Of a stretch of 43,683 nucleotides of DNA, positions 8,056 through 28,767 are shown one piece after another (positions within the stretch are counted from its first letter, which is position 1; the number at the start of each line of letters is the position of its first letter). The stretch is from positions 1 to 43,683 of the forward strand of contig CACYSA010000009.1 in the NCBI GenBank assembly GCA_902777015.1. The letters are read 5' to 3'. A model generated the notes under the pieces. It saw nothing but the letters and a program-made list of their open reading frames with translations, was not told the origin of the DNA and did not search any database. Both the position numbers and the translations under genes were made by a program. This stretch comes from an uncultured Erysipelotrichaceae bacterium. GTDB lineage: Bacteria > Bacillota_I > Bacilli_A > RFN20 > CAG-826.

Positions 8056-8064
8056 GTTGATATT

Positions 8065-9356: not shown

Positions 9357-9374
9357 GTTAGTTTTAAGTACAAT

Positions 9375-9412
9375 AAAAGCAGACTTTTTAAAGAATTAGA
9401 TCTGCTTTTTTT
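9375..9412. terminator. Bidirectional terminator between trmD and the accessory operon
   Basis: The stem AAAAGCAGA (9375-9383)/TCTGCTTTT (9401-9409) is followed by T on the plus strand and by TTTTATT on the minus strand. It can end both trmD and the convergent gene that stops at 9417. Confidence 0.85.
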
Positions 9413-9416
9413 TATA

Positions 9417-11363
9417 CTAGATGTTTTTAACTATTTTTAGGATGTTTTTACCATCTTTATATTCATAAGTCATATCATCCATACTTTTCTTAACCATGAA
9501 TATTCCCAATCCTCCTTTTTGACGTTCCATCAAGGAAAGAGAAGTATTAGGATCAGGTTTAGCAAGAGGATTATATTCGCTTCCTGAATCAATAAACGTG
9601 ATTTCTATTGAAAGAGGGTCTTCATTCATTGAGACTTGAATGACAGCATCACCGCTAGAAGAGCCATAAGCATAATTTGCAATATTAACAAATATTTCTT
9701 CAACAGCGATATCAATCGTTGTCTGTGTCTTCATTGGGCAATCAACTTCTTCAAGTTTTTGATCAATAAAAGCTTGTACTTCTTCTAAATTATTGACATC
9801 CGCTTTGACGATTAACTCTTCAACGTTTTTTGTTTCTTTTGAGGCTTCTATTGGGTTTGAGCCGATATATCTTATGCCCAACATTGTTAAGTCATCAAAT
9901 TGTGGAGCATCTTTAACAAAGCCATCAACGGCTTTTTTAACGCCTTCTAGGACTTCTTGCTGAGAAATACCTTGAGGAAGATTATTCAAGGCTTCAACTG
10001 TGCGATCAGTTCCAAAAAGCTGCTTATTTGCATTTGTGGCTTCAGCGACACCATCAGTGTAAACGAATATTTGATCACCGCTTTTGAGTGTGATTTCCAT
10101 ATCTTTATATTTGGAATTTGGCATCGCACCGATGGCTAAGCCATGTATATCTTTAAATATTTCATATTTGCCATTTACATTGATAATTGGATATTCATGT
10201 CCCGCACTAGAAGTGACTAGTTTGCCTGTGCTAATTTCTAATATACCAAGCCAAACTGTCACAAACATATGAGCTTTGTTACTAGCGTAAACCGCCCTAT
10301 TGACTCTTTCTAGTATCTCAGAAGGCTTTCCACCGATTAAAGCGTGGTCGTTAATAAGAATCTTACTAGACATCATAAATAACGCCGCAGGAACGCCTTT
10401 TCCTGAAACGTCGGCAATTACCATGGCTAAATGGTCATCATCAATCATAAAGAAGTCATAAAAGTCACCACCAACTTCTTTAGCGGGAGTCATAGAAGCA
10501 TAAATATCAAATTCATGTCTATCTGGGAAAGGAGGGAAAACTGATGGAAGGGTATTTGCTTGGATTTCTGTACCCATATTAAGCTCAGTTTCTGTCGCAG
10601 TCATTTTCTTGTTATTATCGTTAAAAATAACGCAATACATCACGATTAGAGACATTAAAACAAAGCCATATTGAGCCGCCGCCCCATGTTCTCCACCGAC
10701 AAGGTAATAGCCAATGCCTGGGAAAACAACAAATAGCAAGGCCGGAATCTTTTGATTCCAAGGAGCGTGGCAAATAATTATATGAACAATTCCAATAATA
10801 AAAACTATATCAGGAGCAATATCCATGAGCCAAGCAAGGGAGGTATAGGCAAAAACACCCTGTTCATCAACAGCAAATGTTAATGGATAGATAATATTAA
10901 TTAATATAATAAGAGTACCTAATGAAGCTAAAATAGGCACTATTATATCAGTAATCTTGGCTATTTTGCCTTCAATACTAAGTAATTTTTTAATGTAATA
11001 ATAATAAAGATCAACAATTAGTGCCAAATCAAGGAAACTAGAAAGAACGCATAATGTTAAATGTAAGATTCTTAACTCGGATAAGCCGGATACAAATAGC
11101 ATTAATTCATTAATTAAAAAACTTGTACTGACCATCAAGATGAGAAGTCGAAAGATTAAAGTTCCTTCTCCTTTTTGTCTTAAACACCCATAAAAAAGAG
11201 CAACACAAATAATGGCACCAATCGTGTCAACACCAAAATCAAACAAATATGATTGGATCCTTGCTACCTCAAAGTTAATATCACTCCAAACAATGAGAAA
11301 AATCCCTACCGCAATGGTATAGACTAATCCTAATACGTTGAACCAATTAATCTTTTTTAACAT
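9417..11363 (-). CDS. Membrane PP2C-type (SpoIIE/RsbU) phosphatase fused to an RsbW-like kinase domain
   Basis: A 648-residue protein with about eight N-terminal membrane segments (roughly 1-250). A SpoIIE/RsbU-type PP2C phosphatase domain follows (about 275-500) with TPAKEVGGDFYDFF, VIADVSGKGVPAALFM, VYTDGVAEA and DDLTMLGIRY. The C-terminus (about 510-648) is a GHKL ATPase of the RsbW/SpoIIAB type, with the N box AVEEIFVNIANYAYG, FIDSGSEYNP and KGGLGIFMVKKSMD. In partner switching, the phosphatase dephosphorylates a STAS protein and the kinase phosphorylates it or binds a target. Here both activities are in one chain, next to a STAS gene. No sigma factor is nearby. It is the last gene of the accessory operon, 78 nt after the STAS gene. 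Confidence 0.88.
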   Translation of the reverse strand: MLKKINWFNVLGLVYTIAVGIFLIVWSDINFEVARIQSYLFDFGVDTIGAIICVALFYGCLRQKGEGTLIFRLLILMVSTSFLINELMLFVSGLSELRILHLTLCVLSSFLDLALIVDLYYYYIKKLLSIEGKIAKITDIIVPILASLGTLIILINIIYPLTFAVDEQGVFAYTSLAWLMDIAPDIVFIIGIVHIIICHAPWNQKIPALLFVVFPGIGYYLVGGEHGAAAQYGFVLMSLIVMYCVIFNDNNKKMTATETELNMGTEIQANTLPSVFPPFPDRHEFDIYASMTPAKEVGGDFYDFFMIDDDHLAMVIADVSGKGVPAALFMMSSKILINDHALIGGKPSEILERVNRAVYASNKAHMFVTVWLGILEISTGKLVTSSAGHEYPIINVNGKYEIFKDIHGLAIGAMPNSKYKDMEITLKSGDQIFVYTDGVAEATNANKQLFGTDRTVEALNNLPQGISQQEVLEGVKKAVDGFVKDAPQFDDLTMLGIRYIGSNPIEASKETKNVEELIVKADVNNLEEVQAFIDQKLEEVDCPMKTQTTIDIAVEEIFVNIANYAYGSSSGDAVIQVSMNEDPLSIEITFIDSGSEYNPLAKPDPNTSLSLMERQKGGLGIFMVKKSMDDMTYEYKDGKNILKIVKNI

Positions 11364-11396
11364 AATAATCTTCTTTTCAAAGAGAATATAAGAGAA

Positions 11397-11422
11397 AGAA
11401 CGGATTATAAGATGTCCGTTCT
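11397..11422 (-). terminator. Hairpin between the STAS and phosphatase genes
   Basis: On the minus strand, AGAACGGA pairs perfectly with TCCGTTCT across a 10-nt loop and is followed by TTCTCTT. The T run is imperfect, so it may be a weak terminator or an mRNA-processing or stability element that sets the phosphatase level below that of the STAS protein. Confidence 0.5.
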
Positions 11423-11441
11423 AAATTATAGAGATGTTTAT

Positions 11442-11774
11442 TTATTCAATATTGAATACTTGGATGAATCCTGTGACATCAAAAATCTCACGTATTGCTT
11501 CACTAACATGGACAAGAACCATTTCACCTTTACCATCTAATTGTTGCGCAGCACCAAGTAAAACTCTTAAGCCAGCAGAAGAAATATAAGCTAATTTATC
11601 AAGATCAAGAACAAGCTTTTTAGCGTTGCCAATAATCTTGTTAAGTTCTGCATCAAGTTGTGGAGAAGTTAAAGTATCTAATCTACCGTCAACCAAAACG
11701 GTATATGTATCTCCATCTTTATTTACCGAAACTTTTAATTTTGATTCTGTATTCTTTTTACCAAATAATCCCAT
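11442..11774 (-). CDS. STAS-domain anti-sigma factor antagonist-like protein
   Basis: A 110-residue protein: a short basic N-terminus (MGLFGKKNTESK) and one STAS domain of the SpoIIAA/RsbV type. The phosphorylation loop is LAYISSAGLRVLLGAAQQL, with Ser65/Ser66 as candidate phospho-acceptors. In known systems the unphosphorylated form captures an RsbW-type kinase and frees its partner. AGGAG lies 8 nt before the ATG. It begins 31 nt after the last large paralogue and precedes the phosphatase-kinase fusion, so it is probably that enzyme's substrate. The regulated target is not evident. Confidence 0.9.
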   Translation of the reverse strand: MGLFGKKNTESKLKVSVNKDGDTYTVLVDGRLDTLTSPQLDAELNKIIGNAKKLVLDLDKLAYISSAGLRVLLGAAQQLDGKGEMVLVHVSEAIREIFDVTGFIQVFNIE

Positions 11775-11805
11775 ATGTTTTTCTCCTGTTTATATTGTAA
11801 TCCTA

Positions 11806-14217
11806 TTACTCACTAACTTTCATTTCTTTTCTTTTAGAAATAATTAACATAATTGCAATACCGATGCCTGCACCAACTACCGCGCCAATACCTGCAAATA
11901 AGAAGCCAGTACCAGTAGAGAAGTTAGATCCAGCAACAGATGCTTTAGGTAAAGCAGATTCATCAACTTGGAAATATACATATGTACCTTTAGGCGTGTC
12001 GTTATAGCAATAATAAGCGCTAGTCAAGTTATAAGCATTTTCAGTTTCAAAATTATGGATACCTAAATTGGAATATCCAGTTGGGATGTTAGATGTACCT
12101 TTAACAACTAGAAGAGAGTCAGCTTTAATTGGAGCATGACCATCTTCTCTAACATAATATAAAGCTAACCATTCTTTACCAACATCACCATTAAGGTCAG
12201 CGTAGTTTTGAAGTTGCTCATAGTAAGGAGCATCACTCTTACGATTACATTCTGCTACTCGATAATAAGCAGAATCGTTTCTCTTAACCATTGTTTTACC
12301 ATTTACTTCTTCAGTAATTTTAGTTTCTTCAACGATATATTTTGGAATTGGGGTATATTCGACTTGATAATAGGCTTGCAATTCTTGAACTGTACTAATA
12401 ATTGAGTAAACTGCTAAGGCCGCCATCGCGACAGTAAAAGCTGCACCTAAATAAGTACAAATCTTTGATTTAGTAGCTAATTGTGAGACAGTTTTATCAT
12501 AAGTATAAGTGCAATCTCCAGCATATTCTTTTCCGACTACCTCTTCAAGCATTTCCATTCGGGTCTCTAACAAAGCATCTCTATAAGAGCTTTCAAATGC
12601 CTTAGAGACTTTATCATGCATTAAATCCCATAATTTGTCAGAGAATTTTAAATTAATTGTTTTAACTGCATCCTTTGCGCTACTTAACATTTCAAAAGTC
12701 TTAGCATAAGGCGCTCCAATCACCCAAGAAGCAATCATACCAGCGGTAGCAACTGCAGTCGCACCCCATAAAACATAAGTTGTGGCACTTAATGGTGAAT
12801 CTACAACTGCATCATTTTTCATGGCTTCTGCTCTAAGAGCTTTATTAGTTAAAGCAACCTTGCCTTTTTCAAATATTTCTCTATTGACGCCTTCAAAGAT
12901 AGAAACAGGTTCAATATCGCCTAATTCGTTTGCTTCGTAACTTGTCGCATCCGCAGTTGCAATTGTAACTAGGTCTTGAAGAGAAAGGAAATCTAATCCA
13001 GCGAGTTGGCCTGCAGAAAGTGAGGCAACAATTGGATATAAGTTTCTAATGCCGTCTCCATTAAATGCACTAGCGTCTTGCATAAAGAATTCAGCAAGAG
13101 TTGTACCATCATCGAAATCATAATCAATTTCATCCATACGTTCTTTTGCGGCAACAAGTTCGAGATCAAGAGTATCATTGGACATTTCACAACTAGTCAC
13201 AACCTCTGCGGCAATAGATTCGCCGTTTTCGTTAAGTTCTTTGTTGTCGTTATATTTTTCCATTGAGTCGATTTTTTCTTCATATTCTTGTTCTTTAAAA
13301 TTCAACAACTCATTGGCCTTATTATCATAATCTAAAAGAGCGTAATTAAAGACATCCCATTTTTCTAATAATTGTTTAGCACTATCTTCATACGTTTTAT
13401 CTAAGGTTGTATCAACTTCAGTAATATCGACACCTTGATAAATTAATTTATCTTCTAAAGCTTCTAAAGAATTATCTTCTAATCTCTCAATCCAGCTTGT
13501 TTCCGCTGTATCAGTAGCTTTAGTTAATAAAGTTTCCATCGTCAGCATATTTTTACCATTCGCTTGCATAACGATAGTTGCGATATCAGCATGTTGTTTC
13601 TTTTCTTCGATAGATAAGGCGTTATATGCGGTATCTCCTAATTCGTATTTAGTTTCATTCACTAATAAATCACCGAGGAGTCCACCTGTATCATCATCTT
13701 TAAGTTTATTAAGCATAGACTTCATATATGTGGCACGAGCTTTGTTTGCTGGATACTCGGATTGTAGATTAGTTCTATATTCTTGGAGAGTCGCTAAAAA
13801 TCTTTCTATGAAAGGTAAGATCTCTGTCTTTAAACGAGTTTCCATTAAAGATTCATAGTCTCTGATGCTATAACCGCCTCTCATATTCATAACCGCTAAG
13901 TCGGTAATAGCTTGAGTTGGATCATTAGTGATTTTATAACCTAAATAGACTTTCTTTTGTCCTCTACCCATAGTAGGATCTTTAGAACCAGCATCTTCAT
14001 TTAAGTCTGCATATTTTCCATCTTTAGATAGAATAGTAAAACCTTCTTCAAGGAGCTCTTTAACCGCTCCAGCTTCGGTTTTATCCATTCCTACCTTGAC
14101 TTCGGAAATGTATTTTGTTTCACCCGCTGCCATTGCAGGAGCGTAACGAGCTGGAATAGAAACTCCTAAGGCTACCACCATAGCGGCAATTGTTAATTTA
14201 GAAAAGATTTTTAACAT
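11806..14217 (-). CDS. Large surface protein, paralogue 3 (MABP-like domain, variable loop, C-terminal anchor)
   Basis: An 803-residue protein of no family I can name with confidence. A signal peptide ends at about APAMA-A (31). Residues 35-115 form a beta-rich domain (KYISEVKVG, GFTILSKDGKYADLN, KKVYLGYKITND, AITDLAVMNM) that resembles the MABP beta-prism motif. A long acidic helical region follows to about 470, containing LYPIVASLSAGQLAGLDF. A membrane segment (about 475-500), about 80 variable residues and a second membrane segment (about 582-612) come next. A second beta-rich domain (EYTPIPKYIVEE, NYADLNGDVGKEWLALYY, GTYVYFQVDES) precedes GSNFSTG, a C-terminal membrane segment and a basic tail. 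AGGAGG lies before the ATG, and the gene is 22 nt after its neighbour paralogue. Confidence 0.8.
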   Translation of the reverse strand: MLKIFSKLTIAAMVVALGVSIPARYAPAMAAGETKYISEVKVGMDKTEAGAVKELLEEGFTILSKDGKYADLNEDAGSKDPTMGRGQKKVYLGYKITNDPTQAITDLAVMNMRGGYSIRDYESLMETRLKTEILPFIERFLATLQEYRTNLQSEYPANKARATYMKSMLNKLKDDDTGGLLGDLLVNETKYELGDTAYNALSIEEKKQHADIATIVMQANGKNMLTMETLLTKATDTAETSWIERLEDNSLEALEDKLIYQGVDITEVDTTLDKTYEDSAKQLLEKWDVFNYALLDYDNKANELLNFKEQEYEEKIDSMEKYNDNKELNENGESIAAEVVTSCEMSNDTLDLELVAAKERMDEIDYDFDDGTTLAEFFMQDASAFNGDGIRNLYPIVASLSAGQLAGLDFLSLQDLVTIATADATSYEANELGDIEPVSIFEGVNREIFEKGKVALTNKALRAEAMKNDAVVDSPLSATTYVLWGATAVATAGMIASWVIGAPYAKTFEMLSSAKDAVKTINLKFSDKLWDLMHDKVSKAFESSYRDALLETRMEMLEEVVGKEYAGDCTYTYDKTVSQLATKSKICTYLGAAFTVAMAALAVYSIISTVQELQAYYQVEYTPIPKYIVEETKITEEVNGKTMVKRNDSAYYRVAECNRKSDAPYYEQLQNYADLNGDVGKEWLALYYVREDGHAPIKADSLLVVKGTSNIPTGYSNLGIHNFETENAYNLTSAYYCYNDTPKGTYVYFQVDESALPKASVAGSNFSTGTGFLFAGIGAVVGAGIGIAIMLIISKRKEMKVSE

Positions 14218-14239
14218 GACTAATTCCTCCTACATCTTT

Positions 14240-16696
14240 TTATTCTTGAGTTACTTTTGTTTCTTTCTTTTTGTTGAGCACAAACATGATTGCAACCGCA
14301 ATGCCTGCACCAACAACAGCGCCAATACCAGCGAATAAAACTGCAGAACCAGTTGAGAAGTTAGATCCAGTAACTGAAGCGTTTTTAATAGCGGATTCAT
14401 CTAAATTGAAATAGACATAAGTTCCTTTATTTGGATCGTTATAGCAATAATATTTACTTGTTAAGTTATAAGCATTTTCAGTTTCAAAATTATGGATACC
14501 TAAATTGGAATATCCAGTTGGGATAGTAGAAGTTCCCGTTACTACTTTTAAGCTATCAGCTTTAATTGGAGCGTGGCCATCTTGTCTAGCATAATATAAT
14601 GCCAACCACTGCTTACCAACATCACCATTAAGATCAGCGTAGTTTTGTAATACATCGTAGAAATCAGCATCTGGTTTACGGTTACATTCCACGACTCTAT
14701 AATATGCAGAATCATTTCTCACCACAGTTGTGACACCGTTTTCCGTTTTTGTGATGTCTGTCTCTTCAACAATATATTTTGGAATTGGAGTGTATTCGAC
14801 TTTGTAATAATCGAGTAATTCTTTAATTGTGGACCAGATAGAGACAGCTGCAAGAGCCGCCATCGCGACAGTAAAAGCTGCACCTAAATATGTTGCAATT
14901 TTGGATTTAGTAGCTGCATTAGCGGCCACTTTTTCAAAAGATGTTTTACCATCTTGAATTTGCTTAGCGACTTTACTGCCATATATACCTTCTAATCTAG
15001 CATTATAAATCTCTTTAGCGACACGTTGGTCTTCAAGGGCATTAAATGCGCTAAATGAAACTTTTTCCATACCAGGGGTTTGTGTTATTCTAACGTAATC
15101 TTTTGTAAGGGATGGGAGTTGGGCTAAATATATTGATTTAGCAGTTTTGGCTGCTGCGACAGAGGCAGTAGCGAAATCCTTAAGTTGTGAAGCAAAAGCA
15201 AATGAAGCAATCATACCCGCTGTTGCAAGAGCGGTCGCTCCCCAAAGGATATAAGTTGTTGCACTTAATGGATGATCAACAACTGCATCATTCTTCATCG
15301 CTTCAGCACGTAATGCTTTATTTGTTAAAGCGACTTTACCTTTTTGGAAGATTTCTCTATTGACGCCTTCATAAATAGAAACTGGCTCAAGATTGCCTAA
15401 ATCGTTTGCTTCGTAACTTGTCGCATCAGCAGTCGCAATGGTAACTAAGTCTTGAAGAGATAAGAAATCAAGACCTGCTAGTTGACCTGCAGAAAGTGAG
15501 GCAACGATAGGATATAAATCTCTAATACCATCTCCATTAAAGACACTTGCATCTTGAGCAAAGAATTCAGCAAGAGTTGCACCATCATCGAAATCATAAT
15601 CGACTTCATCCATACGTTCTTTAGCCGCGATTAATTCTAGATCAAGAGTTGTTTCTACAAAGTCGTTTTGCACTTCTATACTAGCAACAAGAGCTTCACC
15701 GTTCTTATCTTTGTTTTGGCTATTTTCATCATATTGTTCAATGGCTTTAACTTGTTCATCAAATGCATTTTCACCAATATTAGCTAATTCATTAGCTTTA
15801 TCATCATATTCATTAAGGGCTTGAGAAAATGTATCCCATTTTTCTAATAGTTTATTCGCGTCATCGCCATACATTCTATCTAGTGTTGCATCTTGTTCTG
15901 TGATATCAACACCAGCTTCATCTAATTGCTCTTTCAAATCATCGAGAGTGTTTTCTTCTAATCTATCAATCCAGCTTTTTTCATCTGTATCAGTAGCTTT
16001 AGTTAACAAAGTCTCCATAGATAAAGTAGATTTGCCGTTTGCTTGCATGATAATAGTAGCGATATCAGCGTGTTGTTTCTTCTCTTCATCGGATAAAGCA
16101 GCGTATTCTGTATCGCCTAATTCATATTTAGTTTTATTAATCAATAAATCACCTAATAATCCACCTGTATCGTCATCTTGGAGCTTATTAAGCATTGATC
16201 TCATATATTCTGCGCGAGCTTTATTAGCTGTGAAAGGAGATTTAAGGTTTGCTCTATATTCGTCAAGAGTGACTATAAATCTATCGATAAAAGGGAGAAC
16301 TTCAGTTTTGAGCCTGGTTGCCATCAAGGCTTCATAATCTTTAATACTATAACCGCCTCTCATATTCATAACTGCTAAGTCAGTGATAGCAAAAGTTGGA
16401 TCATTCGTGGTCTTATAGCCTAAATAGACTACTTTTTGTCCTCTACCCATGGTATCATCAGAACCAGCACCTTTATTTAAGTCAGCATTATTACCATTAT
16501 CATCTTTTAAAATAGTAAAACCATCATCAAGAAGTGATTTAGCAGCACCTTCTTCAGTTTTATCCATACCCACTTTTATTTCGGAAATGTATTTTGTTTC
16601 ACCTGCTGCCATTGCAGGAGCGTAACGAGCTGGAATAGAAACTCCTAAAGCTACCACCATAGCGGCAATTGTTATTTTAGAAAAGATTTTTAGCAT
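14240..16696 (-). CDS. Large surface protein, paralogue 2
   Basis: An 818-residue copy of the same architecture as the two flanking genes; the first 35 residues, including the signal peptide, are almost identical to both. The N-terminal beta-rich domain reads KYISEIKVG, GFTILKDDNGNNADLN, KVVYLGYKTTND and AITDLAVMNMRGGYS. The helical region contains DLYPIVASLSAGQLAGLDF. Membrane segments lie at about 475-500 and 598-625. The roughly 95 residues between them (QLKDFATASVAAAKTAKS and onward) bear no visible resemblance to the equivalent part of paralogues 1 and 3. The C-terminus has GSNFSTG, a Gly/Ala-rich membrane segment and NKKKETKVTQE. AGGAGG precedes the ATG at 16696; it starts 22 nt after paralogue 1. 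Confidence 0.8.
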   Translation of the reverse strand: MLKIFSKITIAAMVVALGVSIPARYAPAMAAGETKYISEIKVGMDKTEEGAAKSLLDDGFTILKDDNGNNADLNKGAGSDDTMGRGQKVVYLGYKTTNDPTFAITDLAVMNMRGGYSIKDYEALMATRLKTEVLPFIDRFIVTLDEYRANLKSPFTANKARAEYMRSMLNKLQDDDTGGLLGDLLINKTKYELGDTEYAALSDEEKKQHADIATIIMQANGKSTLSMETLLTKATDTDEKSWIDRLEENTLDDLKEQLDEAGVDITEQDATLDRMYGDDANKLLEKWDTFSQALNEYDDKANELANIGENAFDEQVKAIEQYDENSQNKDKNGEALVASIEVQNDFVETTLDLELIAAKERMDEVDYDFDDGATLAEFFAQDASVFNGDGIRDLYPIVASLSAGQLAGLDFLSLQDLVTIATADATSYEANDLGNLEPVSIYEGVNREIFQKGKVALTNKALRAEAMKNDAVVDHPLSATTYILWGATALATAGMIASFAFASQLKDFATASVAAAKTAKSIYLAQLPSLTKDYVRITQTPGMEKVSFSAFNALEDQRVAKEIYNARLEGIYGSKVAKQIQDGKTSFEKVAANAATKSKIATYLGAAFTVAMAALAAVSIWSTIKELLDYYKVEYTPIPKYIVEETDITKTENGVTTVVRNDSAYYRVVECNRKPDADFYDVLQNYADLNGDVGKQWLALYYARQDGHAPIKADSLKVVTGTSTIPTGYSNLGIHNFETENAYNLTSKYYCYNDPNKGTYVYFNLDESAIKNASVTGSNFSTGSAVLFAGIGAVVGAGIAVAIMFVLNKKKETKVTQE

Positions 16697-16718
16697 GCTA
16701 CATCCTCCTACATCTTAT

Positions 16719-19109
16719 TTATTCTTGAGTTACTTTTGTTTCTTTCTTTTTGTTAAGTATTAACATAATCGCAATACCGATACCTGCACCAACAACTGCA
16801 CCAATACCTGCAAATAAGAAGCCGGTACCAGCTGAGAAGTTAGATGCTGATAAAGAAGCACTCTTTAATACTGATTCATCAACTTGGAAATATACATATG
16901 TACCTTTAGGCGTGTCGTTATAACAATAATGTTTATCAGTTAAATTAAGAGTGTCACCACCAAACATATGGATACCTCTTTCATAACCTGTTGGTAAATT
17001 AGAATTACCAGTTACAACTTTAAGAGAATCCGCTAAAATTGGAGCTTGACCTTCATATTTCACGTAATAAAGGGCTAACCACTGTCTACCGACATCTCCG
17101 TTTAAATCAGCGAAGTTTTGAAGTTGCTCATAATAAGGAGCATCACTCTTACGATTACATTCTGCTACTCGATAATAAGCAGTATCATTTCTTTTGAGTA
17201 TTGTCACTCCATTAATAGTTTCTGAAACCTCAGCTTTTTCAACCATGTATTTAGGAATAGGTGTGTAATCGACATTATAGTAGGCATTTAATTCTTGCAC
17301 TGTGGTAATAATGGAATAAATTGCTAAAGCGGTCATGGCCACTGTAAAAGCAGCACCAAGATAAGCGCAAAATTTAGATTTGGCTGAGTAATTTGCTACA
17401 GTATCCCTATAATCATCTGCGTCTTCAAGAATAGTCTTTGCAGCTCTTGATCCGACTACTTTTTTCATTCCGTCATAATATTCATCATATTTTATTTTAA
17501 AATATTCTGGATTAGACTCTGCATATTTTTCAATTTTATCCGGCCATTTAGCAATATATCCTTTAATATAATGTAAATCATTTTTGACATGGTTAAAGTA
17601 ACCAAACATTCCCCATGAAGCAAGCATTCCAGCGGTTGCGATTGTTGTCGCTCCCCAAAGAATCCAAGTATTTGTGCTTAAAGGAGAATCACTAACTGCG
17701 TCGTTTTTCATTGCTTCCGCACGCAACGCTTCACTAGTCAAAGCTACTTTACCCGTTGTGAAAATTTCTCTGTTAACTCCTTCATAAATTGAGGCAGGTT
17801 CAGCATCACCTAAATCATTACCTTCGTAATTTGTGGCATCAGCAGTCGCGATAGTAACTAAATCTTGAATAGATAAGAAATCTAGACCTGCGATTTGACC
17901 AGCAGATAAAGAGGCAACGATTGGATATAAATCTCTAATCCCATCGCCATTAAATACACTTGCATCTTGAGCGAAAAATTCAGCAAGAGTTGCACCATCA
18001 TCGAAATCATAATCGACTTCATCCATGCGTTCTTTTGCAGCGACTAATTCAAGATCTAATACGCGGCTTGCTAATTCATCTCCTGTTTTTACACTTGTAA
18101 CAACAGCGTTGTTATTTTTCTCATAATTTTTGCTATTTTCATCGAATTGATCAATCGTTTCAAATTGTTCATCATATTCGTGTTCGCCATAATTCGCTAA
18201 AGAGTTTGCCTTATCATCATAGTCGTTAAGAGCCTCTGAGAATGTATCCCATTTTTCTAATAATTTCTTAGCGTCATCACCATACATTCTGTCTAATGTA
18301 GCATCTACTTCAGTGATATCAACACCGTTATCTTCTAACTCTTGTTTTAAATCATCCAATGTATTATCTTCTAATCTATCAATCCAGCTTTTTTCATCTG
18401 TATCAGTAGCTTTAGTAAGGAATGTTTCCATTGATAAAGTAGCTTTACCATTGGCTTGCATGAGGATAGTTAAAATATCAGCATGGTTCTTTTTCTCTTC
18501 ATCGCTTAAAGCGGCATAAGCAGCATCACCAAGTTCGTATTTAGTTTCATTTGCTAATAAATCACCCATTAAACCACCTGTATCATCATCAGTTAGATTG
18601 TTAAGCATGGATTTCATATATTGAGCACGAGCTTTATTAGATGCATAAGGAGAATTAAGATTATCCCTATATTCTTGTAAAGTGACTATGAATCTTTCAA
18701 CGAAAGGAATTATTTGAACTTTTAATTTGTTTTCCATTAATTCTTCATAGTCTTTAATAGAATAGCCGCCTCTCATATTCATGACTGCTAAATCAGTGAT
18801 AGCTTCTTTAGCATCAGTGGTTGTCTTATATCCTAGATAAACAATCTTTTGACCTCTACCCATTGTTGGATCTTTAGAGCCGGCTTCATAGTTCAAATCG
18901 GCATACTTTCCATCTTTAGAAAGGATAGTATAACCACCAGAAAGAAGTTCGCTTTTTGCTTCATCTTCGGTTTTACCGATACCCACTCTAACTTCGGAAA
19001 TATACCTTGTTTCGCCTGCTGCCATTGCTGGAGCGTAACGAGCTGGAATAGAAACTCCTAAAGCTACCACCATAGCGGCAATTGTTAATTTAGAAAAGAT
19101 TTTTAACAT
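16719..19109 (-). CDS. Large surface protein, paralogue 1
   Basis: A 796-residue member of the tandem family, first of the three in transcription order. It has the shared signal peptide, an N-terminal beta-rich domain (RYISEVRVG, GYTILSKDGKYADLN, KIVYLGYKTTTD, AITDLAVMNM) and helical region (DLYPIVASLSAGQIAGLDF). Membrane segments are at about 473-495 and 576-605. The segment between them (HVKNDLHYIKGYIAKWPDK and onward) is unlike that of the other two copies. The second beta-rich domain has FADLNGDVGRQWLALYY. It ends ASNFSAG, membrane segment, NKKKETKVTQE; these last residues are the same as in paralogue 2, so gene conversion between copies is likely. AGGAGG precedes the ATG; the gap to the upstream giant gene is 28 nt. 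Confidence 0.8.
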   Translation of the reverse strand: MLKIFSKLTIAAMVVALGVSIPARYAPAMAAGETRYISEVRVGIGKTEDEAKSELLSGGYTILSKDGKYADLNYEAGSKDPTMGRGQKIVYLGYKTTTDAKEAITDLAVMNMRGGYSIKDYEELMENKLKVQIIPFVERFIVTLQEYRDNLNSPYASNKARAQYMKSMLNNLTDDDTGGLMGDLLANETKYELGDAAYAALSDEEKKNHADILTILMQANGKATLSMETFLTKATDTDEKSWIDRLEDNTLDDLKQELEDNGVDITEVDATLDRMYGDDAKKLLEKWDTFSEALNDYDDKANSLANYGEHEYDEQFETIDQFDENSKNYEKNNNAVVTSVKTGDELASRVLDLELVAAKERMDEVDYDFDDGATLAEFFAQDASVFNGDGIRDLYPIVASLSAGQIAGLDFLSIQDLVTIATADATNYEGNDLGDAEPASIYEGVNREIFTTGKVALTSEALRAEAMKNDAVSDSPLSTNTWILWGATTIATAGMLASWGMFGYFNHVKNDLHYIKGYIAKWPDKIEKYAESNPEYFKIKYDEYYDGMKKVVGSRAAKTILEDADDYRDTVANYSAKSKFCAYLGAAFTVAMTALAIYSIITTVQELNAYYNVDYTPIPKYMVEKAEVSETINGVTILKRNDTAYYRVAECNRKSDAPYYEQLQNFADLNGDVGRQWLALYYVKYEGQAPILADSLKVVTGNSNLPTGYERGIHMFGGDTLNLTDKHYCYNDTPKGTYVYFQVDESVLKSASLSASNFSAGTGFLFAGIGAVVGAGIGIAIMLILNKKKETKVTQE

Positions 19110-19137
19110 GATTAATTCCTCCTAAAGCCTATTACAA

Positions 19138-22100
19138 CTAAGCTCTTCTCGAACTTCTTTTTCGAATTTCACTATATTCATTATTAAGATAAATATTGAA
19201 GTCGTCGATACGACCGTGGCATAAATCTTCGTATGAACGATAGCCACCAAAATTGTCGAATAAGTTAAAGTGATATTGTGCATTAACTTGTAATTTATTT
19301 GCTGCGGTGTTGCTATTACTAGTCACACGATGAATCGTTCCAACAGTCATGGATTCAGAAACGAAACCACCTGTGATTTCGCCCCATGACTTAGCACTAC
19401 CATCTTCACGTTGAATGAAAGCAGTAATTCTATTATCAGTTGGAACATGATCATCATCGAATTTCACAATTCCAGCGTTAAAATCAACAACGGTTCTGAA
19501 ATCGATGCTCGTAATATACTCCCATCTATAAATATTACTTTCTCCATCGCCTTCAACACTTGCGTCTTTTAGATAAGGCACTCTATCATATCTCGCAAAG
19601 GCAATCTTTGTGATTGGAGCGGTGAATATATCGGCAGGATCGTTTGATTTGATTTGAGATGAATCTAGACCAATTTTGCTATTATACGAAGTAGCAACTG
19701 CTGTAGAAGTATAGTACATATAGATTTCTGGTCCTTGCGTACCTGCATTCAAATTAATATTAGATACAGGCGCATAATGTATTTGATATCTTTCAGAATT
19801 GATACCTTCTGGATGGAAAGGTTCTCCAATCGTACAAACGATATCATAAACAGCACCTTGTTGTTGTTTTTTAAGTTCTGCTTCTCGAGCGGATTCAGTA
19901 GGTTGCATCTTGACCTTATCGTAATCAATCGTGTAACCTCGATAGCCGAAATAAACATATTTGCCACCAGAATCAACGTTTAAATCCATATCGCAGAATT
20001 CTGTACAGCCTTGCTCTAATAATGAGAGCATTGCCTCTTTTTTACTATTTCCTTCAGCGATATATAGTTTATTGAAATAAGTATTATTGCCATGTTCATA
20101 AGCAGCATGGATAAAGGCATTTAGATTACCATTGCCGTACATTTCTGCTGGTTCGGTAATAACTTTCTTACCGCCTTCATATGTGACAACATCTTCTTTA
20201 TCACAACAAAGGACAGTCGCTTGTCCAGAAGTAAATGGATCACTACTAATTGATAATTCTGTTAATGGTTTACCTGGATTAGCACCTTTATTGTAAGTGT
20301 AATAGAGATAATAACTCTCATATTCCATCTTACCCTTTTTAGGATCGTTTCCATCTTTATCATTTTTCACAATTCTTAAAGGAGTTGTATTACTAGCACA
20401 GTAATACGTCATACCTTGAATTTGAATTTGTTCAGGAACGGCTTTTTCATTACTCTTAAAGAGTAATAATCCTGTCACAGCATCTTGCTCTTTATCAGTA
20501 CGGGCTACTGAGATATAAGATGCATATTGATATTTATTGGCGGGTTCTAATTTTGATATCCCGTCTTTATTAGAGTAGTTAGTCCATTGATATTCTTTAG
20601 TAATACCCATGTTATAGACAATAACTTCGCCAGAACCAGCTTGACTGGCAATCATCATTGCTTGATGGTCAGTAGATTTACTTAATTCTTCATATTCATC
20701 ATCAGCTTTTTTCTGACTTGTTGGGGTGTAATCTTCTTTACAGTAAGAACCAACAAATACACGAGAAATATATTTACCTTTAATAATTTCTTTTCTTAAA
20801 TAAATATATTTTGTTGTGGATGCTTTCCAAACATCGTCATCATCGTCATCATAATAAATATCAGAATAGGCGATATTGTAGGCTTTTAATGAATATGGGT
20901 TTTTCATTTCTTGAATAGAAACAAAGTCACCAGTGCATTCTTGGCCGTTTAAAGTCTTTTCACCACTGACATCAAATGAAATTGTGTTATCTTCGAGTTT
21001 ACCTGAATGTGAATTAGAAGAAATAATCACATCATCAAGAGTTAATGGGTTTTTGCCTTTTGTATAACCTGCGACATATAAACCAGTTGGCAAAAGATTT
21101 AACATTTTATAACCAAAATCAATGCCTTCAGGAAGGTCTCTAGTGTGTATATCATCAAAAAGTTCAGTAGTCAGCAAACGTTGGTTGATATATGCGTTTT
21201 GAGGTAGATATCCTCTAGAGGCAAAATTGCCTCCTACACCTTGATGAGCAAGAACGCTTGCTGCTACATAATTGATATTAGCTTCGGCAGAACCGGCTTT
21301 TTTATCAGAATAAGTCGACGCTTTAGAAAGTGTATAAGGTAAAGTTTCAACATAAGGTGAAGTCTGATATATAGCCATATCGTATAAAGCGCGATAAGGA
21401 TTGTAACTATATGTATAACAAATATACATATATTTTTGTGAGCTATGAGTATCATGATCGTTCGCTCTACTTGATGAAGCAAGGTTATCAGATATTACCT
21501 CAGTATTTGGTACCTTTTTCACTTCATTAACAAGATCTCTCATGTATGATTTGAGTTTAATTGGGTAACTACCTCCTGACAAATCAGTATCAAAACCATG
21601 GAGGAAGTAGATACCAGAAAGATATTTTGTACCACTTGTATATTTCACTTCTGGTTCAAAATAGATAAGGGTTTTGGTATGACTCCATGAATTAGAATTG
21701 TTATACATTCTGATACCAATAGTAGAGAAAAGACCACTTGAAATATAAACAGTATTGAAATCATATGGCGCACCAGAGAAGGTTGTGACTGGTTCCCAAC
21801 CAGCTTTTGCTTCACTATAATCGGTGACAATATGTAGTTTTCCTTCTTCGATTGGAGTACCCGCTTTAGCGCTCTTAGTGACATATAGTCCAGTTAAATT
21901 ACCAGGACAGTCTTCATCTTCTTCACTAGTATTAGCTTTATAGCCAAGCACTCCAGCACAACCATAGCTTATATCACCAAAATTAGGAGTAGCATCAGGT
22001 AAGAATGTTGCCACTCTTATATCACGAATTGCATCATTAGGATCGGTTGTGAGTTGATAGCCAATATAAGTGTAATATGTCTCATCATCACTAAAATAAT

Positions 22101-24243
22101 GTGCACTACCTGTAGTACTTGGAGAAGGAGTAAGATTACGGTCTAAAATGTAATAACCTTTAACAGTTATTCTATCTTTAGCTTCGGCTTCTGTTTTACC
22201 AGTTCTAACAATAATATCTCCATAATATTGTTTACCAGTCATTGTTGGAGTATAGCCTTCTGGAGCTTCCACCATTTCATTGTTGAGAGATTTAGCAGTA
22301 TGGTAATGGATATAGATGCCATTCACATCATCGTTCTTAGCAAATGTGTTGCAGTTACCTGGGCTGACTTCACCAAAGAAATTGACTGAACTGTAGCCAT
22401 TTTGCTTTTCACTATTTCCATAGACAATATTAAAGATTTTATTTTCATCATCAGCGATAATTGGACTACCAACACGGGTATCTTTTGTCGTATACATACA
22501 AACCCAACCCTTTTGTCCTTCGTAGCCGTTTAAATCGCCGATTTTTCCTTTATTGTTTCTAACAGCTTTATATTTGATGTTAGCGTTACCACTACTAGTT
22601 GTAGGGGCATCAACAACATAATCGGGCATATCTGTATATTCTTTTGGTTTGCTCTTTTCAATCATGTTGATAATCCATCTACACAAATAGTAAACAACCG
22701 TGAATACTAAGATTAATAAACCAAGGAACATACATACTTGTCCTAAAACTGAACCAATAGTGGTTAATACACCAATAACACTAGATAATGTAGACGCCAC
22801 TGCTGCTGAAGCGAATTTAGCAATGATGGTTAATAGACCAACTAAAGCGTATTTACCAATAATAAAGGAAACAACAGTTAAGGCACTTGAAGCAATACCA
22901 ACCCACTTCAAAACTCTTTCAACTGTCTCATGTCCTTCGTTAGATGTATCTTTTTCTAAAGCAGTTTGCGCTGCATTCTTTCTAATCGCATCAGAAGTAT
23001 ACGCCACTTTTGCGTTTTCAAAATCTGGATCAGCATTTAGCCAAATAGAATAAACATCATTTTCTGTCATGATTCTTAGTTTTTCTTTGGCTTTAGCTAA
23101 TAATTCATTAAATTGAGGAGAACGCTCATTTTTACTAAGGTTAGATGCAGCACCGACTAAGCCTGAATACATCGTCATTTTACACTGAGCATAGCTCATG
23201 GAATCGATGATTGGATAAATCGACTTAAGGTCAACTGCATCTTTGGTAGTTTTACCTAAGTTAAAAATATATTCGCCTAAAGGCATAGCGTCAGTAGCCT
23301 GGTATTCATTTAATTTTTCATAAATATCAATATATAAAGAATCGGTTTCATCATTTTCAACCGTTTCAACATTTTCCACGTATTCTTCAACACTTCCTTC
23401 CGCAGTAATTTCTTTGCCGCTATAACGTTGCAAAGCATTATCAACATTAGATGCGAATTCTTGGAATTGTTTATGTAATCCTTGAGCGGAATCATCATAT
23501 TGTTTACGAAGATCATCTTCTTCATCTTCGCTTAAGTCATCTTCAATGATGTCCCATAATGGGCTATCTATAACTTTAGCGGCCCAGCTATTATCTTCAC
23601 CAGCTTCTTCAGCGTCTTTATCATATGGGGCTAAACCAGCAGAAAGATAACTAATAACTGAATTTAATGTGGAAGAGCTAGCTTGAACGATAAATCTAGC
23701 GTAGAAATCTTTTGTGCCTTTACCAGCGAGTAAGAAATCACCGAATTTTTGATTGCCTTCTTCCGGAACAACAATCATATTCATACCGTTATAAGCATCG
23801 ATAGCTTTTGGACTTTCATCCGAGAAATTAGAAACAAACTCAATAGAAGCGGCTTCTAATGTTTCTGCTAATTCGGTTTGCTGTTTCATGTATTCTTGTT
23901 GCATCGAGGCTTTATCTTTAATTTCATAGCCGCGGTCCATAGCAAGAATTCTTATTTCATAAATCGCTTCTTTTTCATTTAATGTGGTTTTATAACCCAA
24001 ATAAACAGGTTTTTTACCTGTACCAGAGTTAACATCTTTACTAATAAATGTATAACCATCGTTTGTACATTCTGTTCTCGCTGCTTCTTCATTATCAGCT
24101 TCATACATCTTAACTTCTGATAAATAGACAGTTTGGTCTTGAGCAAGAACTGGTTTATATCTATTAGGGTTCGCGCTATCTATAAAGAGAAATAAGGATA
24201 ATATAAAGCAAATTATGCCAGTTAAACTAAAACGTTTTTTCAT
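19138..24243 (-). CDS. Giant secreted/membrane protein with repeated MABP-like beta-rich domains
   Basis: A 1701-residue protein. The ATG at 24243 is chosen because AGAGGAGG is 9 nt upstream; the in-frame ATG three codons earlier directly abuts that site. A hydrophobic signal segment (FSLTGIICFILSLFLFI) is followed by a beta-rich domain (VYLSEVKMYEAD, GYTFISKD, KKPVYLGYKTTLN, AIYEIRILAM), an acidic helical region with SIYPIIDSMSYAQ, and a hydrophobic cluster of three to four membrane segments (about 431-531). A domain matching the C-terminal part of the three paralogues comes next (EYTDMPDYVV, GDLNGYEGQKGW). About 1000 residues of further beta-rich units follow, e.g. DIIVRTGKTEAEAKDRI..GYYILDRNL..YIGYQLTTDPNDAIRDIRV. 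There is a run of six Asp at about 1130. The end is basic (RKRSSRRA) with no membrane anchor. Confidence 0.75.
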   Translation of the reverse strand: MKKRFSLTGIICFILSLFLFIDSANPNRYKPVLAQDQTVYLSEVKMYEADNEEAARTECTNDGYTFISKDVNSGTGKKPVYLGYKTTLNEKEAIYEIRILAMDRGYEIKDKASMQQEYMKQQTELAETLEAASIEFVSNFSDESPKAIDAYNGMNMIVVPEEGNQKFGDFLLAGKGTKDFYARFIVQASSSTLNSVISYLSAGLAPYDKDAEEAGEDNSWAAKVIDSPLWDIIEDDLSEDEEDDLRKQYDDSAQGLHKQFQEFASNVDNALQRYSGKEITAEGSVEEYVENVETVENDETDSLYIDIYEKLNEYQATDAMPLGEYIFNLGKTTKDAVDLKSIYPIIDSMSYAQCKMTMYSGLVGAASNLSKNERSPQFNELLAKAKEKLRIMTENDVYSIWLNADPDFENAKVAYTSDAIRKNAAQTALEKDTSNEGHETVERVLKWVGIASSALTVVSFIIGKYALVGLLTIIAKFASAAVASTLSSVIGVLTTIGSVLGQVCMFLGLLILVFTVVYYLCRWIINMIEKSKPKEYTDMPDYVVDAPTTSSGNANIKYKAVRNNKGKIGDLNGYEGQKGWVCMYTTKDTRVGSPIIADDENKIFNIVYGNSEKQNGYSSVNFFGEVSPGNCNTFAKNDDVNGIYIHYHTAKSLNNEMVEAPEGYTPTMTGKQYYGDIIVRTGKTEAEAKDRITVKGYYILDRNLTPSPSTTGSAHYFSDDETYYTYIGYQLTTDPNDAIRDIRVATFLPDATPNFGDISYGCAGVLGYKANTSEEDEDCPGNLTGLYVTKSAKAGTPIEEGKLHIVTDYSEAKAGWEPVTTFSGAPYDFNTVYISSGLFSTIGIRMYNNSNSWSHTKTLIYFEPEVKYTSGTKYLSGIYFLHGFDTDLSGGSYPIKLKSYMRDLVNEVKKVPNTEVISDNLASSSRANDHDTHSSQKYMYICYTYSYNPYRALYDMAIYQTSPYVETLPYTLSKASTYSDKKAGSAEANINYVAASVLAHQGVGGNFASRGYLPQNAYINQRLLTTELFDDIHTRDLPEGIDFGYKMLNLLPTGLYVAGYTKGKNPLTLDDVIISSNSHSGKLEDNTISFDVSGEKTLNGQECTGDFVSIQEMKNPYSLKAYNIAYSDIYYDDDDDDVWKASTTKYIYLRKEIIKGKYISRVFVGSYCKEDYTPTSQKKADDEYEELSKSTDHQAMMIASQAGSGEVIVYNMGITKEYQWTNYSNKDGISKLEPANKYQYASYISVARTDKEQDAVTGLLLFKSNEKAVPEQIQIQGMTYYCASNTTPLRIVKNDKDGNDPKKGKMEYESYYLYYTYNKGANPGKPLTELSISSDPFTSGQATVLCCDKEDVVTYEGGKKVITEPAEMYGNGNLNAFIHAAYEHGNNTYFNKLYIAEGNSKKEAMLSLLEQGCTEFCDMDLNVDSGGKYVYFGYRGYTIDYDKVKMQPTESAREAELKKQQQGAVYDIVCTIGEPFHPEGINSERYQIHYAPVSNINLNAGTQGPEIYMYYTSTAVATSYNSKIGLDSSQIKSNDPADIFTAPITKIAFARYDRVPYLKDASVEGDGESNIYRWEYITSIDFRTVVDFNAGIVKFDDDHVPTDNRITAFIQREDGSAKSWGEITGGFVSESMTVGTIHRVTSNSNTAANKLQVNAQYHFNLFDNFGGYRSYEDLCHGRIDDFNIYLNNEYSEIRKRSSRRA

Positions 24244-24244
24244 C

Positions 24245-25795
24245 TTATTCATCCTCCTCTACTCCAGTATTTCCTTCTACTTTTGGTTTTTTAGCAATTT
24301 TTTTACGATAGATAATTACGAAAACTACCGCTGCTATACCAACACCACCAAGGCCAACGGATACCCAGAAAACACCATTACTGAATAATGAGGCAGTGAC
24401 CACCATTGGTGCTTCTTCTTCTTTCTCGTCGCGAATTACCAAAGAGCCACTATCTGCGTGGAAATATTGCATTTGATATTTGCTCATTTTTAAGGAAATT
24501 ACTACGTCATCAGAACTAGAGTCAGAATTAATTCCAATATATGAGCCAGCGTATAAGCCCGCACTATAAACATAAGCTTGTGAAGCTACACCTTTTTGTA
24601 GTGTGACGTTTCTAAAAGCTGAATTATTAGTGCAAGTATTATTATTGACAATGCATTTTCCTTTAAAGGTGATATCGCTTAAACTATCAACCCAAATACC
24701 ACCACCGGCGGTTTTGGCTCTATTATTATCGATTGTAACGTTAATTAAAGCGACATTATCATCATCGATAAATATCGCGCCACCTTTATCAGTGGCTTCA
24801 TTATTTCTAAAAGTGCACCCATCAAAAAGTGTCGCTGGATTATCTAAATTTGGATATTGATTAGCTTTATCTTTAGATGGGTTGTTATTGATATATAACG
24901 CTCCACCATCATCGTCGGCTTTATTGCCAGCAAAGATACAATCTCTAAAATAAATAAGAGCGTCACCAGCTAGATAAACAGCGCCACCATAATCAATGGC
25001 TTGGTTAGCAGCAAATAAGGAGTTATAGACATTGAGATATCCATTATCCACATAAATAGCGCCACCATAATCTTCACTATAGCAACTATCGAAACTGACA
25101 TTATCAATATCGACTGTGCCATTTTTCACATAAATTGCACCGCCATGGCAATTATCAGCGCTATCGATAGTTTGACAACTGTATATTCTTCCGCCTGTCA
25201 TTTTTAAAGTTGTTTTTTCTGATGATCCATCTAGATAAAAACCACCGCCATGATAGTCGGTAACACAGTCGTAGAGAGTTCCACCTTCCCAGATGACATG
25301 TGCTTCATCTTCAATATGGACTCCACCAGCGCAGTTACCACTAGCGCCACCAGTGACAACTCCACCTTGTATGCCATCATATCCTACTGAATCAGGATCG
25401 CTATCTAAAACTGTTAAAGTGGCACCTTTTTCCACAAGGAAAACACTGCCATCGCTAATCTTTTTATGATCTCTTGTGCGTTTTATATAATGACCATTGA
25501 GGTCAACAGCGAGTTTTTTATTTGGGCCAAGAGCTAATTGGCTATCGTGTTCCCAGTTATCCCCAAGGATGAGTTTTACTTCATCAGTGGAATTAGCTCT
25601 AGCAGTTGCGTCGTTCCATCCTAATCTAGGAGTATCAAATTCATAAACATTAGTATTATTAACAATAACACGTGTTTTCCCGCTAGCAGCTATAACTTGG
25701 CTAGGTGCTTTATAACCACTAAAAGCCGCAGCTCCTAAAAGGAAACTTGTGGCAAAACACGCCATTAATGTTTTGAAAGAAGTCTTTTTGTTCAT
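24245..25795 (-). CDS. Surface protein with right-handed beta-helix (GGAIY repeats)
   Basis: A 516-residue exported protein. An N-terminal signal segment (about 8-36) is followed by a lid region and then tandem units of about 25-30 residues with GGAIYVDNG, GGAVYLAGD, GGALYINNN and GGAIFIDDD, and FxxN turns such as CIFAGNKA. This is the pattern of right-handed parallel beta-helix proteins, including polymorphic-membrane-protein-like and adhesin-like proteins. No catalytic residues of a polysaccharide lyase are evident. The C-terminus has TASLFSNG, one membrane segment (about 477-497), and a basic/acidic tail. GAGGT lies 7 nt before the ATG. It is 1 nt from the giant gene, so the two are probably translationally coupled. 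Confidence 0.82.
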   Translation of the reverse strand: MNKKTSFKTLMACFATSFLLGAAAFSGYKAPSQVIAASGKTRVIVNNTNVYEFDTPRLGWNDATARANSTDEVKLILGDNWEHDSQLALGPNKKLAVDLNGHYIKRTRDHKKISDGSVFLVEKGATLTVLDSDPDSVGYDGIQGGVVTGGASGNCAGGVHIEDEAHVIWEGGTLYDCVTDYHGGGFYLDGSSEKTTLKMTGGRIYSCQTIDSADNCHGGAIYVKNGTVDIDNVSFDSCYSEDYGGAIYVDNGYLNVYNSLFAANQAIDYGGAVYLAGDALIYFRDCIFAGNKADDDGGALYINNNPSKDKANQYPNLDNPATLFDGCTFRNNEATDKGGAIFIDDDNVALINVTIDNNRAKTAGGGIWVDSLSDITFKGKCIVNNNTCTNNSAFRNVTLQKGVASQAYVYSAGLYAGSYIGINSDSSSDDVVISLKMSKYQMQYFHADSGSLVIRDEKEEEAPMVVTASLFSNGVFWVSVGLGGVGIAAVVFVIIYRKKIAKKPKVEGNTGVEEDE

Positions 25796-25815
25796 GCGCT
25801 TACCTCACTCTTTCA

Positions 25816-27240: not shown

Positions 27241-27254
27241 TTTATTAACTCCTT

Positions 27255-27917
27255 TTAAGAAGGCTTAACAATGGTTGTTTTTTGTTTCTTATTTCTAACA
27301 GAGAAGACGAGATAAATAATTAATGGGATATATGTCACTGCAGGCATAAAGAATCCAACATATTGTAAGTTCTTTGATTGAACAAGCATATTAAATAAGC
27401 CGTGATAAATAACTGCAAAAGCGAGTAAAGCGAAAGTACCAGAAACGAATAATTTCTTTTTCTTTCTTACGAAGCTCATGCCATATCCCACTGCTGCGGT
27501 GCAAATGCCATGCATTAAAGCGGTTGAGAAACCTCTGATAATTGCCCAAAGAATTGACACGTTATCAATACTTTGTACTAAGATAACGGTGTTTTCAAAT
27601 AAGGCAAATCCAATACCAGTAGCAAACGCTAATGGTAATAATTTTTCTCTATCATCTGAGAATAAGAATGCATATATGAGAACAGGCAATGCTTTTATTA
27701 TTTCTTCAGTTATTGGTGTGAATGTTGTAGTAACCAAAATCATTTGATTATTAAAAGCAATAAGAATGCGTCCATTGATTTCTGAGATGAATAAAGAGAC
27801 ACAGATACCAATAATGAGATAGAGCATTACTCTTCTTGAAGCACCCTTCATCAAAGGAAGAGTTAATAAAAGAGGAGCAAGCATACAAATAAACAAGATA
27901 TAAATTAAATTAGCCAT
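27255..27917 (-). CDS. PrsW-like intramembrane protease (glutamic type)
   Basis: A 220-residue membrane protein with about seven membrane segments and the four conserved motifs of the PrsW family: TEEIIKALPVL (Glu71, Glu72, Lys75), FALFEN (Glu108), ALMHGICTAAVGYG (His136) and YHGLFN (His172, Asn176). PrsW of B. subtilis makes the first cut in the anti-sigma factor RsiW. Related proteins of the wider CPBP/PrsW group act in other membrane cleavages. AGGAG precedes the ATG, and the start overlaps the upstream gene by 13 nt. No anti-sigma factor is nearby, so the membrane-anchored island proteins are candidate substrates, by position only. Confidence 0.82.
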   Translation of the reverse strand: MANLIYILFICMLAPLLLTLPLMKGASRRVMLYLIIGICVSLFISEINGRILIAFNNQMILVTTTFTPITEEIIKALPVLIYAFLFSDDREKLLPLAFATGIGFALFENTVILVQSIDNVSILWAIIRGFSTALMHGICTAAVGYGMSFVRKKKKLFVSGTFALLAFAVIYHGLFNMLVQSKNLQYVGFFMPAVTYIPLIIYLVFSVRNKKQKTTIVKPS

Positions 27918-28573: not shown

Positions 28574-28613
28574 TTTACAATCTCCCTTTCAAATTTTAAA
28601 TTGATTTATGCTA

Positions 28614-28644
28614 TGTATAATGCAGCGTTTGGCTGCAAGTTCAA
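28614..28644 (-). promoter_or_regulatory. Promoter of the 19-kb operon with palindrome in a 19-bp spacer
   Basis: On the minus strand there is TTGAAC (28644-28639), a 19-bp spacer and TATACA (28619-28614). The spacer is filled by a perfect palindrome, TGCAGC-N5-GCTGCA (28621-28637). A long spacer with a central dyad is the layout of promoters that need a DNA-distorting activator, as in MerR-type control. A plain repressor site is equally possible. The predicted leader is about 35 nt. Confidence 0.5.
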
Positions 28645-28682
28645 CTATATTGTATTCTTTTAAATTAATTTTATTAATAGGG

Positions 28683-28699: not shown

Positions 28700-28729
28700 T
28701 TTTTTAAAGATTCATTTTCAATAATTGTT

Positions 28730-28735: not shown

Positions 28736-28767
28736 AATAACAAAGACAAAGACATTTGGTGATATTG

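Follow-up and report, generated by a model that had tools for sequence, protein, structure and literature searches.

A discontinuous MABP/MACPF-type beta-prism in predicted surface proteins on a bacterial genomic island

Four large proteins encoded in the window (the whole 43,683-nucleotide stretch of DNA that was analysed) are, we are confident, members of the MABP/MACPF-type beta-prism fold in a discontinuous layout. In proteins A, B and C, and in the first prism of a giant protein, repeat 1 of the prism is parted from repeats 2 and 3 by an insert of about 540 residues. The fold, the split, the membrane segments and the genomic island described below were all obtained by computation. All four proteins are intact minus-strand open reading frames in the ORF list of the window, and an in-frame ATG at 24243 offers the giant an alternative start, giving the 1701 residues reported in a preliminary description of this DNA. 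That description had pointed to a motif common to the four proteins, and we find it right behind the signal peptide in every one of them. In A, B and C it reads YISE[VI][KR]...G[FY]TIL..D..ADLN..AG......VYLGYK[TI]TxxxxxAITDLAVM, and at the N-terminus of the giant YLSEVK...DGYTFISKDVN.GTGKKPVYLGYKTT...AIYEIRILAM, where DVN replaces DLN. Scans of the four proteins with Pfam, NCBIfam and PADLOC returned no family, and no known defence family was matched by PADLOC. The proteins, and the prism parts of A and C, are listed here with the evidence for each in brackets; A7 denotes a contiguous prism profile of distant Clostridial relatives.

11806..14217, minus strand: protein A, 803 aa, B-like architecture, 71% identical to B (ORF, alignment)
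13864..14118, minus strand: protein A prism repeat 1 (profile of the A/B/C copies; A7 HMM)
11947..12300, minus strand: protein A prism repeats 2 and 3, approximate (alignment to B)
14240..16696, minus strand: protein B, 818 aa, split beta-prism membrane protein, the reference copy (ORF, model, structural match)
16719..19109, minus strand: protein C, 796 aa, B-like architecture, 68% identical to B (ORF, alignment)
18759..19010, minus strand: protein C prism repeat 1 (profile of the A/B/C copies; A7 HMM)
16860..17207, minus strand: protein C prism repeats 2 and 3, approximate (alignment to B)
19138..24252, minus strand: giant protein, 1704 aa, a split prism 1 and then a chain of further prisms (ORF, profile comparisons, VIA-align)

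Structural and sequence evidence for a split prism

Protein B was modelled with AlphaFold (AF2), using 35 relatives as input and no templates. Mean pLDDT is 67.6 and pTM 0.57, with the N-terminal unit at about 90 and the C-terminal domain at about 80. Re-examination of Foldseek's candidates by VIA-align matched residues 33-767 of the model to the prism of Mpf2Ba1 (8B6U, residues 335-482) with a Z of 13.6 (139 residues, 2.4 Å, 24% identity), and residues 34-772 to the MABP domain of MVB12B (3TOW) with a Z of 11.3 (141 of 152 residues, 13% identity), while the third-ranked match reached a Z of only 4.5. Among solved structures, the beta-prisms of the bacterial MACPF proteins Mpf2Ba1 and Plu-MACPF (2QP2) come closest. 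Plain Foldseek did not rank the prism match when the B model was compared with the PDB, found nothing among viral models, and for the giant gave 3TOW at an E of 0.2 only. When PDB sequences were searched with HMMs of the full-length proteins, the N-domain and the giant prisms, only chance matches came back.

16346..16597, minus strand: B prism repeat 1, residues 34-117, DLN at 72-74 (structural match, A7 comparison)
14381..14734, minus strand: B prism repeats 2 and 3, residues 655-772, DLN at 688-690 and AYN at 742-744 (structural match, A7 comparison, alignment)

The preliminary description had likened the motif to the MABP domain and proposed that AlphaFold models be compared with the beta-prism fold. 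In that comparison the B model aligned as one prism, and the fold name is borne out by 3TOW both for B and for the second prism of the giant, which by itself gave Z values of 11.8 to 2QP2, 10.7 to 8B6U and 9.6 to 3TOW. As an identification of the N-terminal motif the name holds at the level of the fold but not of completeness, the unit of about 84 residues being one third of the domain. Because repeat 1 is only about 84 residues long, both ends of the B chain must build one prism; how the two parts dock in B is predicted by a modest-confidence model plus homology. The C-terminal domains that had been described as a variant of the repeat are real (giant against paralogues: probability 99.9, score 197, null maximum 18), but they are repeats 2 and 3 and not a variant of the same repeat. 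Sequences of the A/B/C type have D[LMV]N in repeats 1 and 2 and keep the Asn alone in repeat 3 (AYN, AFN, TLN, AQN), and the DLN positions vary more in the giants and in a two-gene relative, L041, than in these sequences.

The sequence bridge to solved prisms came through the contiguous relatives only. Each of the three repeats in A7 has a DLN-type motif followed by a YIYxxYK-like strand, and the profile matches the Mpf2Ba1 prism at E 3.4e-15 from sequence alone. Run over the 1.6-Mb window genome, the A7 HMM hits six places, all within A, B, C and the giant (E 5e-14 to 2e-9). Positions 5-66 of A7 match the N-terminal unit of B (score 101, null maximum 16) and positions 70-171 its C-terminal domain (score 44.5, null maximum 18.2), with no match in the helical and transmembrane (TM) regions of B. 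Because repeat 1 of A7 maps to the N-terminus and the rest to the C-terminus, the insertion sits between repeats 1 and 2. The usual one-segment layout is absent from A, B, C and giant prism 1, and present in giant prism 2.

Three protein identities were considered and rejected. PF10240 has no match in the window genome at E ≤ 10, which removes membership of the MVB12 family, and the Pfam scan found neither a MACPF nor a DENN domain in A, B, C or the giant.

The insertion, the giant protein and relatives

Membrane segments were predicted by hydropathy, and the insertion in B, with the C-terminal anchor, is laid out as follows.

15272..16345, minus strand: B acidic helical domain, residues 118-475, the first part of the insertion (AF2 helices, pLDDT mostly 70-90; net charge -42)
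15194..15262, minus strand: B predicted TM1, residues 479-501 (hydropathy)
14903..15193, minus strand: B hypervariable TM1-TM2 loop, residues 502-598 (column majority, dN)
14831..14902, minus strand: B predicted TM2, residues 599-622 (hydropathy)
14285..14341, minus strand: B C-terminal TM3 anchor, residues 786-804, with basic tail (hydropathy, tail charge)

A, B and C all end in this third helix and basic tail. We expect both prism parts to lie outside the cell and the loop inside because the signal peptide precedes repeat 1 and because of the order of the membrane segments, not because of charge. Charge fits the predicted topology with TM1, TM2 and TM3 (-10 per 100 aa in the ectodomain, +21 in the tail), and the loop, with a mean charge that is about neutral, gives weak positive-inside support for a cytoplasmic location. 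The helical domain, which was searched within a long model only, showed no convincing structural match. Over its roughly 100 residues the TM1-TM2 loop has a mean column majority of 0.21, where the prism repeats and the helical domain reach 0.61-0.70, and between the window paralogues its dN is 0.65-0.77, against 0.16-0.24 in the flanking regions. We also note that the loop has diverged between tandem paralogues (14903-15193 in B, and the corresponding stretches of A and C) with the adjoining domains conserved.

Prism 1 of the giant is split like that of A, B and C, and is followed by further copies of the repeat. The profile of the A/B/C copies finds the N-terminal copy at i-E 4e-10 and a second at residues 675-747 (i-E 3e-6), and profile-profile comparison finds five copies of repeat 1, at residues 42-110, 674-747, 875-963, 1158-1263 and 1390-1447. 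The four newly found copies score 31-77, and column-shuffled controls (20 each) score at most 20. The repeated motif of the preliminary description is thus genuine and far above chance.

23923..24129, minus strand: giant prism 1 repeat 1, residues 42-110 (A7 prism HMM E 4.6e-14)
22693..22914, minus strand: giant hydrophobic membrane segments within prism 1, residues 447-520 (hydropathy)
22285..22575, minus strand: giant prism 1 repeats 2-3, residues 560-656 (hhalign to the B C-domain, probability 99.9)
21646..22236, minus strand: giant prism 2, three contiguous repeats, residues 673-869 (VIA-align; A7 HMM E 1.7e-9)
20821..21624, minus strand: giant prism 3, probable, residues 877-1144 (repeat-1 score 31, null maximum 16; model strand pattern)
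20086..20781, minus strand: giant prism 4, probable, residues 1158-1389 (repeat-1 score 34, null maximum 15; model strand pattern)
19651..20085, minus strand: giant prism 5, partly supported, residues 1390-1534 (repeat-1 score 44, null maximum 15; A7 HMM)

By our reading the giant carries four prisms beyond prism 1: prism 2, confirmed by structure, prisms 3 and 4, which are probable, and prism 5, which is partly supported. Prisms 3 to 5 are low-confidence assignments from repeat-1 similarity and the strand pattern of a low-confidence model, to which prism 5 adds an A7 HMM match (E 2.9e-10 across prism positions 2-120); no structural match of their own was obtained for these three.

The relative L041 (contig 47 of genome G436; L041:5787-10888) has two tandem copies of the A/B/C type, each coded as two adjacent genes in different frames. 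The N-half comprises the signal peptide, repeat 1 and the helical domain, and the C-half the TM hairpin, repeats 2-3 and TM3. The halves have dN of 0.05 and 0.035 and dS of about 0.45; both are under purifying selection, and only the loop has diverged. A dN/dS of about 0.1, with purifying selection on both halves, led us to reject the idea that these split genes are decaying pseudogenes. Unless there is an assembly fault, the L041 prism must form from two chains.

Several other relatives were observed. The ORFs L068:3752-6223, L070:3475-5913, L071:3267-5804 and L072:614-3274 encode secreted calcineurin-like phosphatases with a contiguous prism and then a dockerin, an enzyme layout of which we found no description in the open literature. 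A 697-aa ORF (G666:C133:14071-15717) has several tandem matches to the contiguous prism profile, and a 472-aa membrane-anchored protein in a related cluster (L067:8985-10403) has a prism-like domain free of the helical/TM insertion.

Genomic island and neighbouring genes

All the cluster genes lie on an island that is recognised by comparison with a congener, G004, which is 95% identical on both flanks (window 541-9360 and 30690-33668) and has 9 bp in the island's place. Ten minus-strand genes at 9417-28573 are tightly packed, and a kinase/regulator pair diverges upstream.

9361..30689, no strand: 21.3-kb genomic island between trmD and ffh, carrying all cluster genes (comparison with congener G004)
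9417..11363, minus strand: SpoIIE-type PP2C phosphatase with HATPase (RsbW-like) domain and hydrophobic N-terminus (Pfam E 1e-42 and 6e-20; adjoins the cluster in other genomes)
11442..11774, minus strand: STAS anti-sigma-factor-antagonist protein (Pfam E 1e-16)
24245..25795, minus strand: Pmp-repeat surface protein with C-terminal TM (Pfam E 3e-13; adjoins the giant in other loci)
25816..27240, minus strand: surface protein with List_Bact (Flg_new) repeat and C-terminal TM (Pfam E 2e-9, hydropathy)
27255..27917, minus strand: PrsW-type intramembrane protease (Pfam E 9e-19; conserved in L008, L009, L042 and L067)
27905..28573, minus strand: 222-aa hydrophobic protein paired with PrsW (pair conserved in the same four loci)
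28756..29364, plus strand: HTH plus receiver response regulator (Pfam)
29364..30626, plus strand: histidine kinase (Pfam)

The 3' end of the Pmp-repeat gene overlaps the start of the giant by 8 bases, and relatives of the window proteins have neighbours of like gene kinds in other loci. The ffh of G004 is 99% identical to that of the window. In genome G433 (locus L005), where cluster and ffh are on different contigs, SpoIIE and STAS are 85-88% identical to those of the window and ffh only 71%. Given the empty site in G004 and the cluster shared with G433, the simplest reading is that the island moved between species by horizontal transfer. No integrase was seen on it; repeats at its ends were sought within each end region on its own. 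A phage or plasmid origin is not supported, as no relatives turned up among plasmids, phages and viral contigs. Searches of 15 genomes of the same genus, and of about 390 genomes sampled evenly across the window's phylum, likewise gave none.

Two observations concern the host genome. Elsewhere in it, a 517-aa lipoprotein-like ORF (L051:952-2505; G000:C3:123703-123927) that includes a YGTEYI stretch matches the Pfam MACPF profile below threshold (E 0.004; 17.7 bits, cut-off 21.5), and no such MACPF-like ORF was found in the five other cluster-bearing genomes. The penicillin-binding transpeptidase PF00905 was not found in the whole genomes of the window host (82% complete) and G433, while the four other cluster hosts have several each; from its absence in the window genome at that completeness, this host may lack a peptidoglycan wall.

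Proposed role and relation to known prisms

We think it rather probable that all four are surface proteins anchored in the membrane and built on a split prism, and that they act as a cation-stabilised, multivalent adhesin or receptor. Repeat 1, just past the signal peptide, and repeats 2-3, about 540 residues on, would form one prism outside the cell, which they can do since both are predicted to be extracellular. This prism would stand on a hairpin of two membrane helices whose hypervariable loop is predicted to be cytoplasmic, A, B and C being also anchored C-terminally, and the giant would be a chain of prisms and so multivalent. What we infer of metal, ligand, adhesion and any signalling is as follows. 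In Mpf2Ba1 the DLN motif is a ligand of Mg2+, and Ca2+ is bound in related prisms (PMC10344926); by analogy, Ca2+ or Mg2+ is probably held by the DLN motifs here at the threefold axis, and a membrane-held prism with such motifs suggests a cation-stabilised adhesin or receptor. The prism would most likely hold on to neighbouring cells or host surfaces by their membranes or glycans. Negatively charged lipids are ligands of the MABP domains of MVB12B and MPEG1 (PMC6753088). The prism parts of the window proteins, however, have an overall acidic charge, which lends no support to contact with acidic lipids by way of a basic loop as in MVB12B; binding to glycans, or contacts bridged by cations, is no less likely. 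Other TM-anchored surface proteins, the PrsW protease and a SpoIIE/STAS regulator are encoded alongside on the moved island.

A plain adhesin has no need of a cytoplasmic loop that is hypervariable, which counts against our proposal; because it is the cytoplasmic loop that has diversified, we keep a signalling role open. One form of this is a transmembrane receptor in which the prism is wrapped round the membrane hairpin and a ligand of the prism, or a pull on it, would move TM1/TM2 and the paralogue-specific loop and signal to the adjacent SpoIIE/STAS switch or the kinase/regulator, with PrsW cutting or retiring receptors. Variability in the loop and not in the surface domain is consistent with this, as are SpoIIE or STAS genes adjoining prism genes in L005, L009, L042, L047, L048 and L076 and the PrsW pair near them in the four loci listed above. 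However, the loop has no recognisable signalling domain, that of the giant is short and hydrophobic, and the neighbouring genes may merely regulate expression, and we regard the scheme as unlikely. Only tentatively, and as a possibility that we would put a little higher, do we suggest a receptor class in which an extracellular prism is nested round its own TM hairpin, closing, opening or pulling of the prism being transmitted to the hairpin and to a cytoplasmic loop peculiar to each paralogue, with one relative rebuilding the prism from two separately encoded chains.

Two further readings fare worse. That the closest solved prisms come from MACPF pore-formers, and that the insertion has two hydrophobic segments, might by analogy point to a membrane-attacking protein whose prism would target a neighbouring cell while helical domain and hairpin insert as a pore. 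Yet the Pfam scan shows no MACPF or other pore-forming domain, TM3 and the basic tail anchor A, B and C in the producer, the helical part lacks a convincing structural match and no known defence family was matched, making such an attack very improbable. More improbable still is that the N- and C-terminal units are separate small prism-like domains that do not assemble together. The docking does come from a modest-confidence model and the match was not reported by Foldseek alone, but a single rigid superposition takes in both ends, and the two units map to adjacent, non-overlapping parts of a single domain that other proteins, and the giant itself, have in contiguous form.

Compared with known systems, the window proteins share a three-repeat prism, and DLN motifs in repeats 1 and 2 of the A/B/C type, with the C-terminal prisms of Mpf2Ba1 (8B6U/8B6V) and Plu-MACPF (2QP2), but they have no MACPF domain, their prism is split by a helical/TM insertion, they are membrane-anchored, and the giant has several prisms. 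Human MVB12B has the same fold at 13% identity; unlike it, the window proteins are bacterial, extracellular and outside any ESCRT context, and PF10240 misses them. MPEG1/perforin-2 resembles the window proteins in holding its MABP prism outside the cytoplasm and in being anchored by a transmembrane helix at its C-terminus (PMC6753088), but its prism is contiguous and accompanied by a MACPF domain. No match to MPEG1 was obtained, an absence that excludes nothing. The nearest contiguous relatives found are the Clostridial phosphatase-prism-dockerin proteins (L068-L072), with DLN motifs in all three repeats; those, in contrast, are secreted enzymes with no membrane insertion. In the open papers and libraries that we covered, we found no description of a split-prism, membrane-anchored architecture.

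The finding extends the MABP/MACPF-type prism, so far known mainly from eukaryotic membrane traffic and pore-formers, to anchored bacterial surface proteins that have no MACPF domain, and identifies a surface system, previously without annotation, that gut bacteria carry on a mobile island. It also presents an unusual case of domain nesting, in which a large module of helices and membrane spans interrupts a small threefold-symmetric domain behind its first repeat. With uninterrupted sister proteins and a natural two-gene version to hand, the evolution and assembly of the prism become directly testable.
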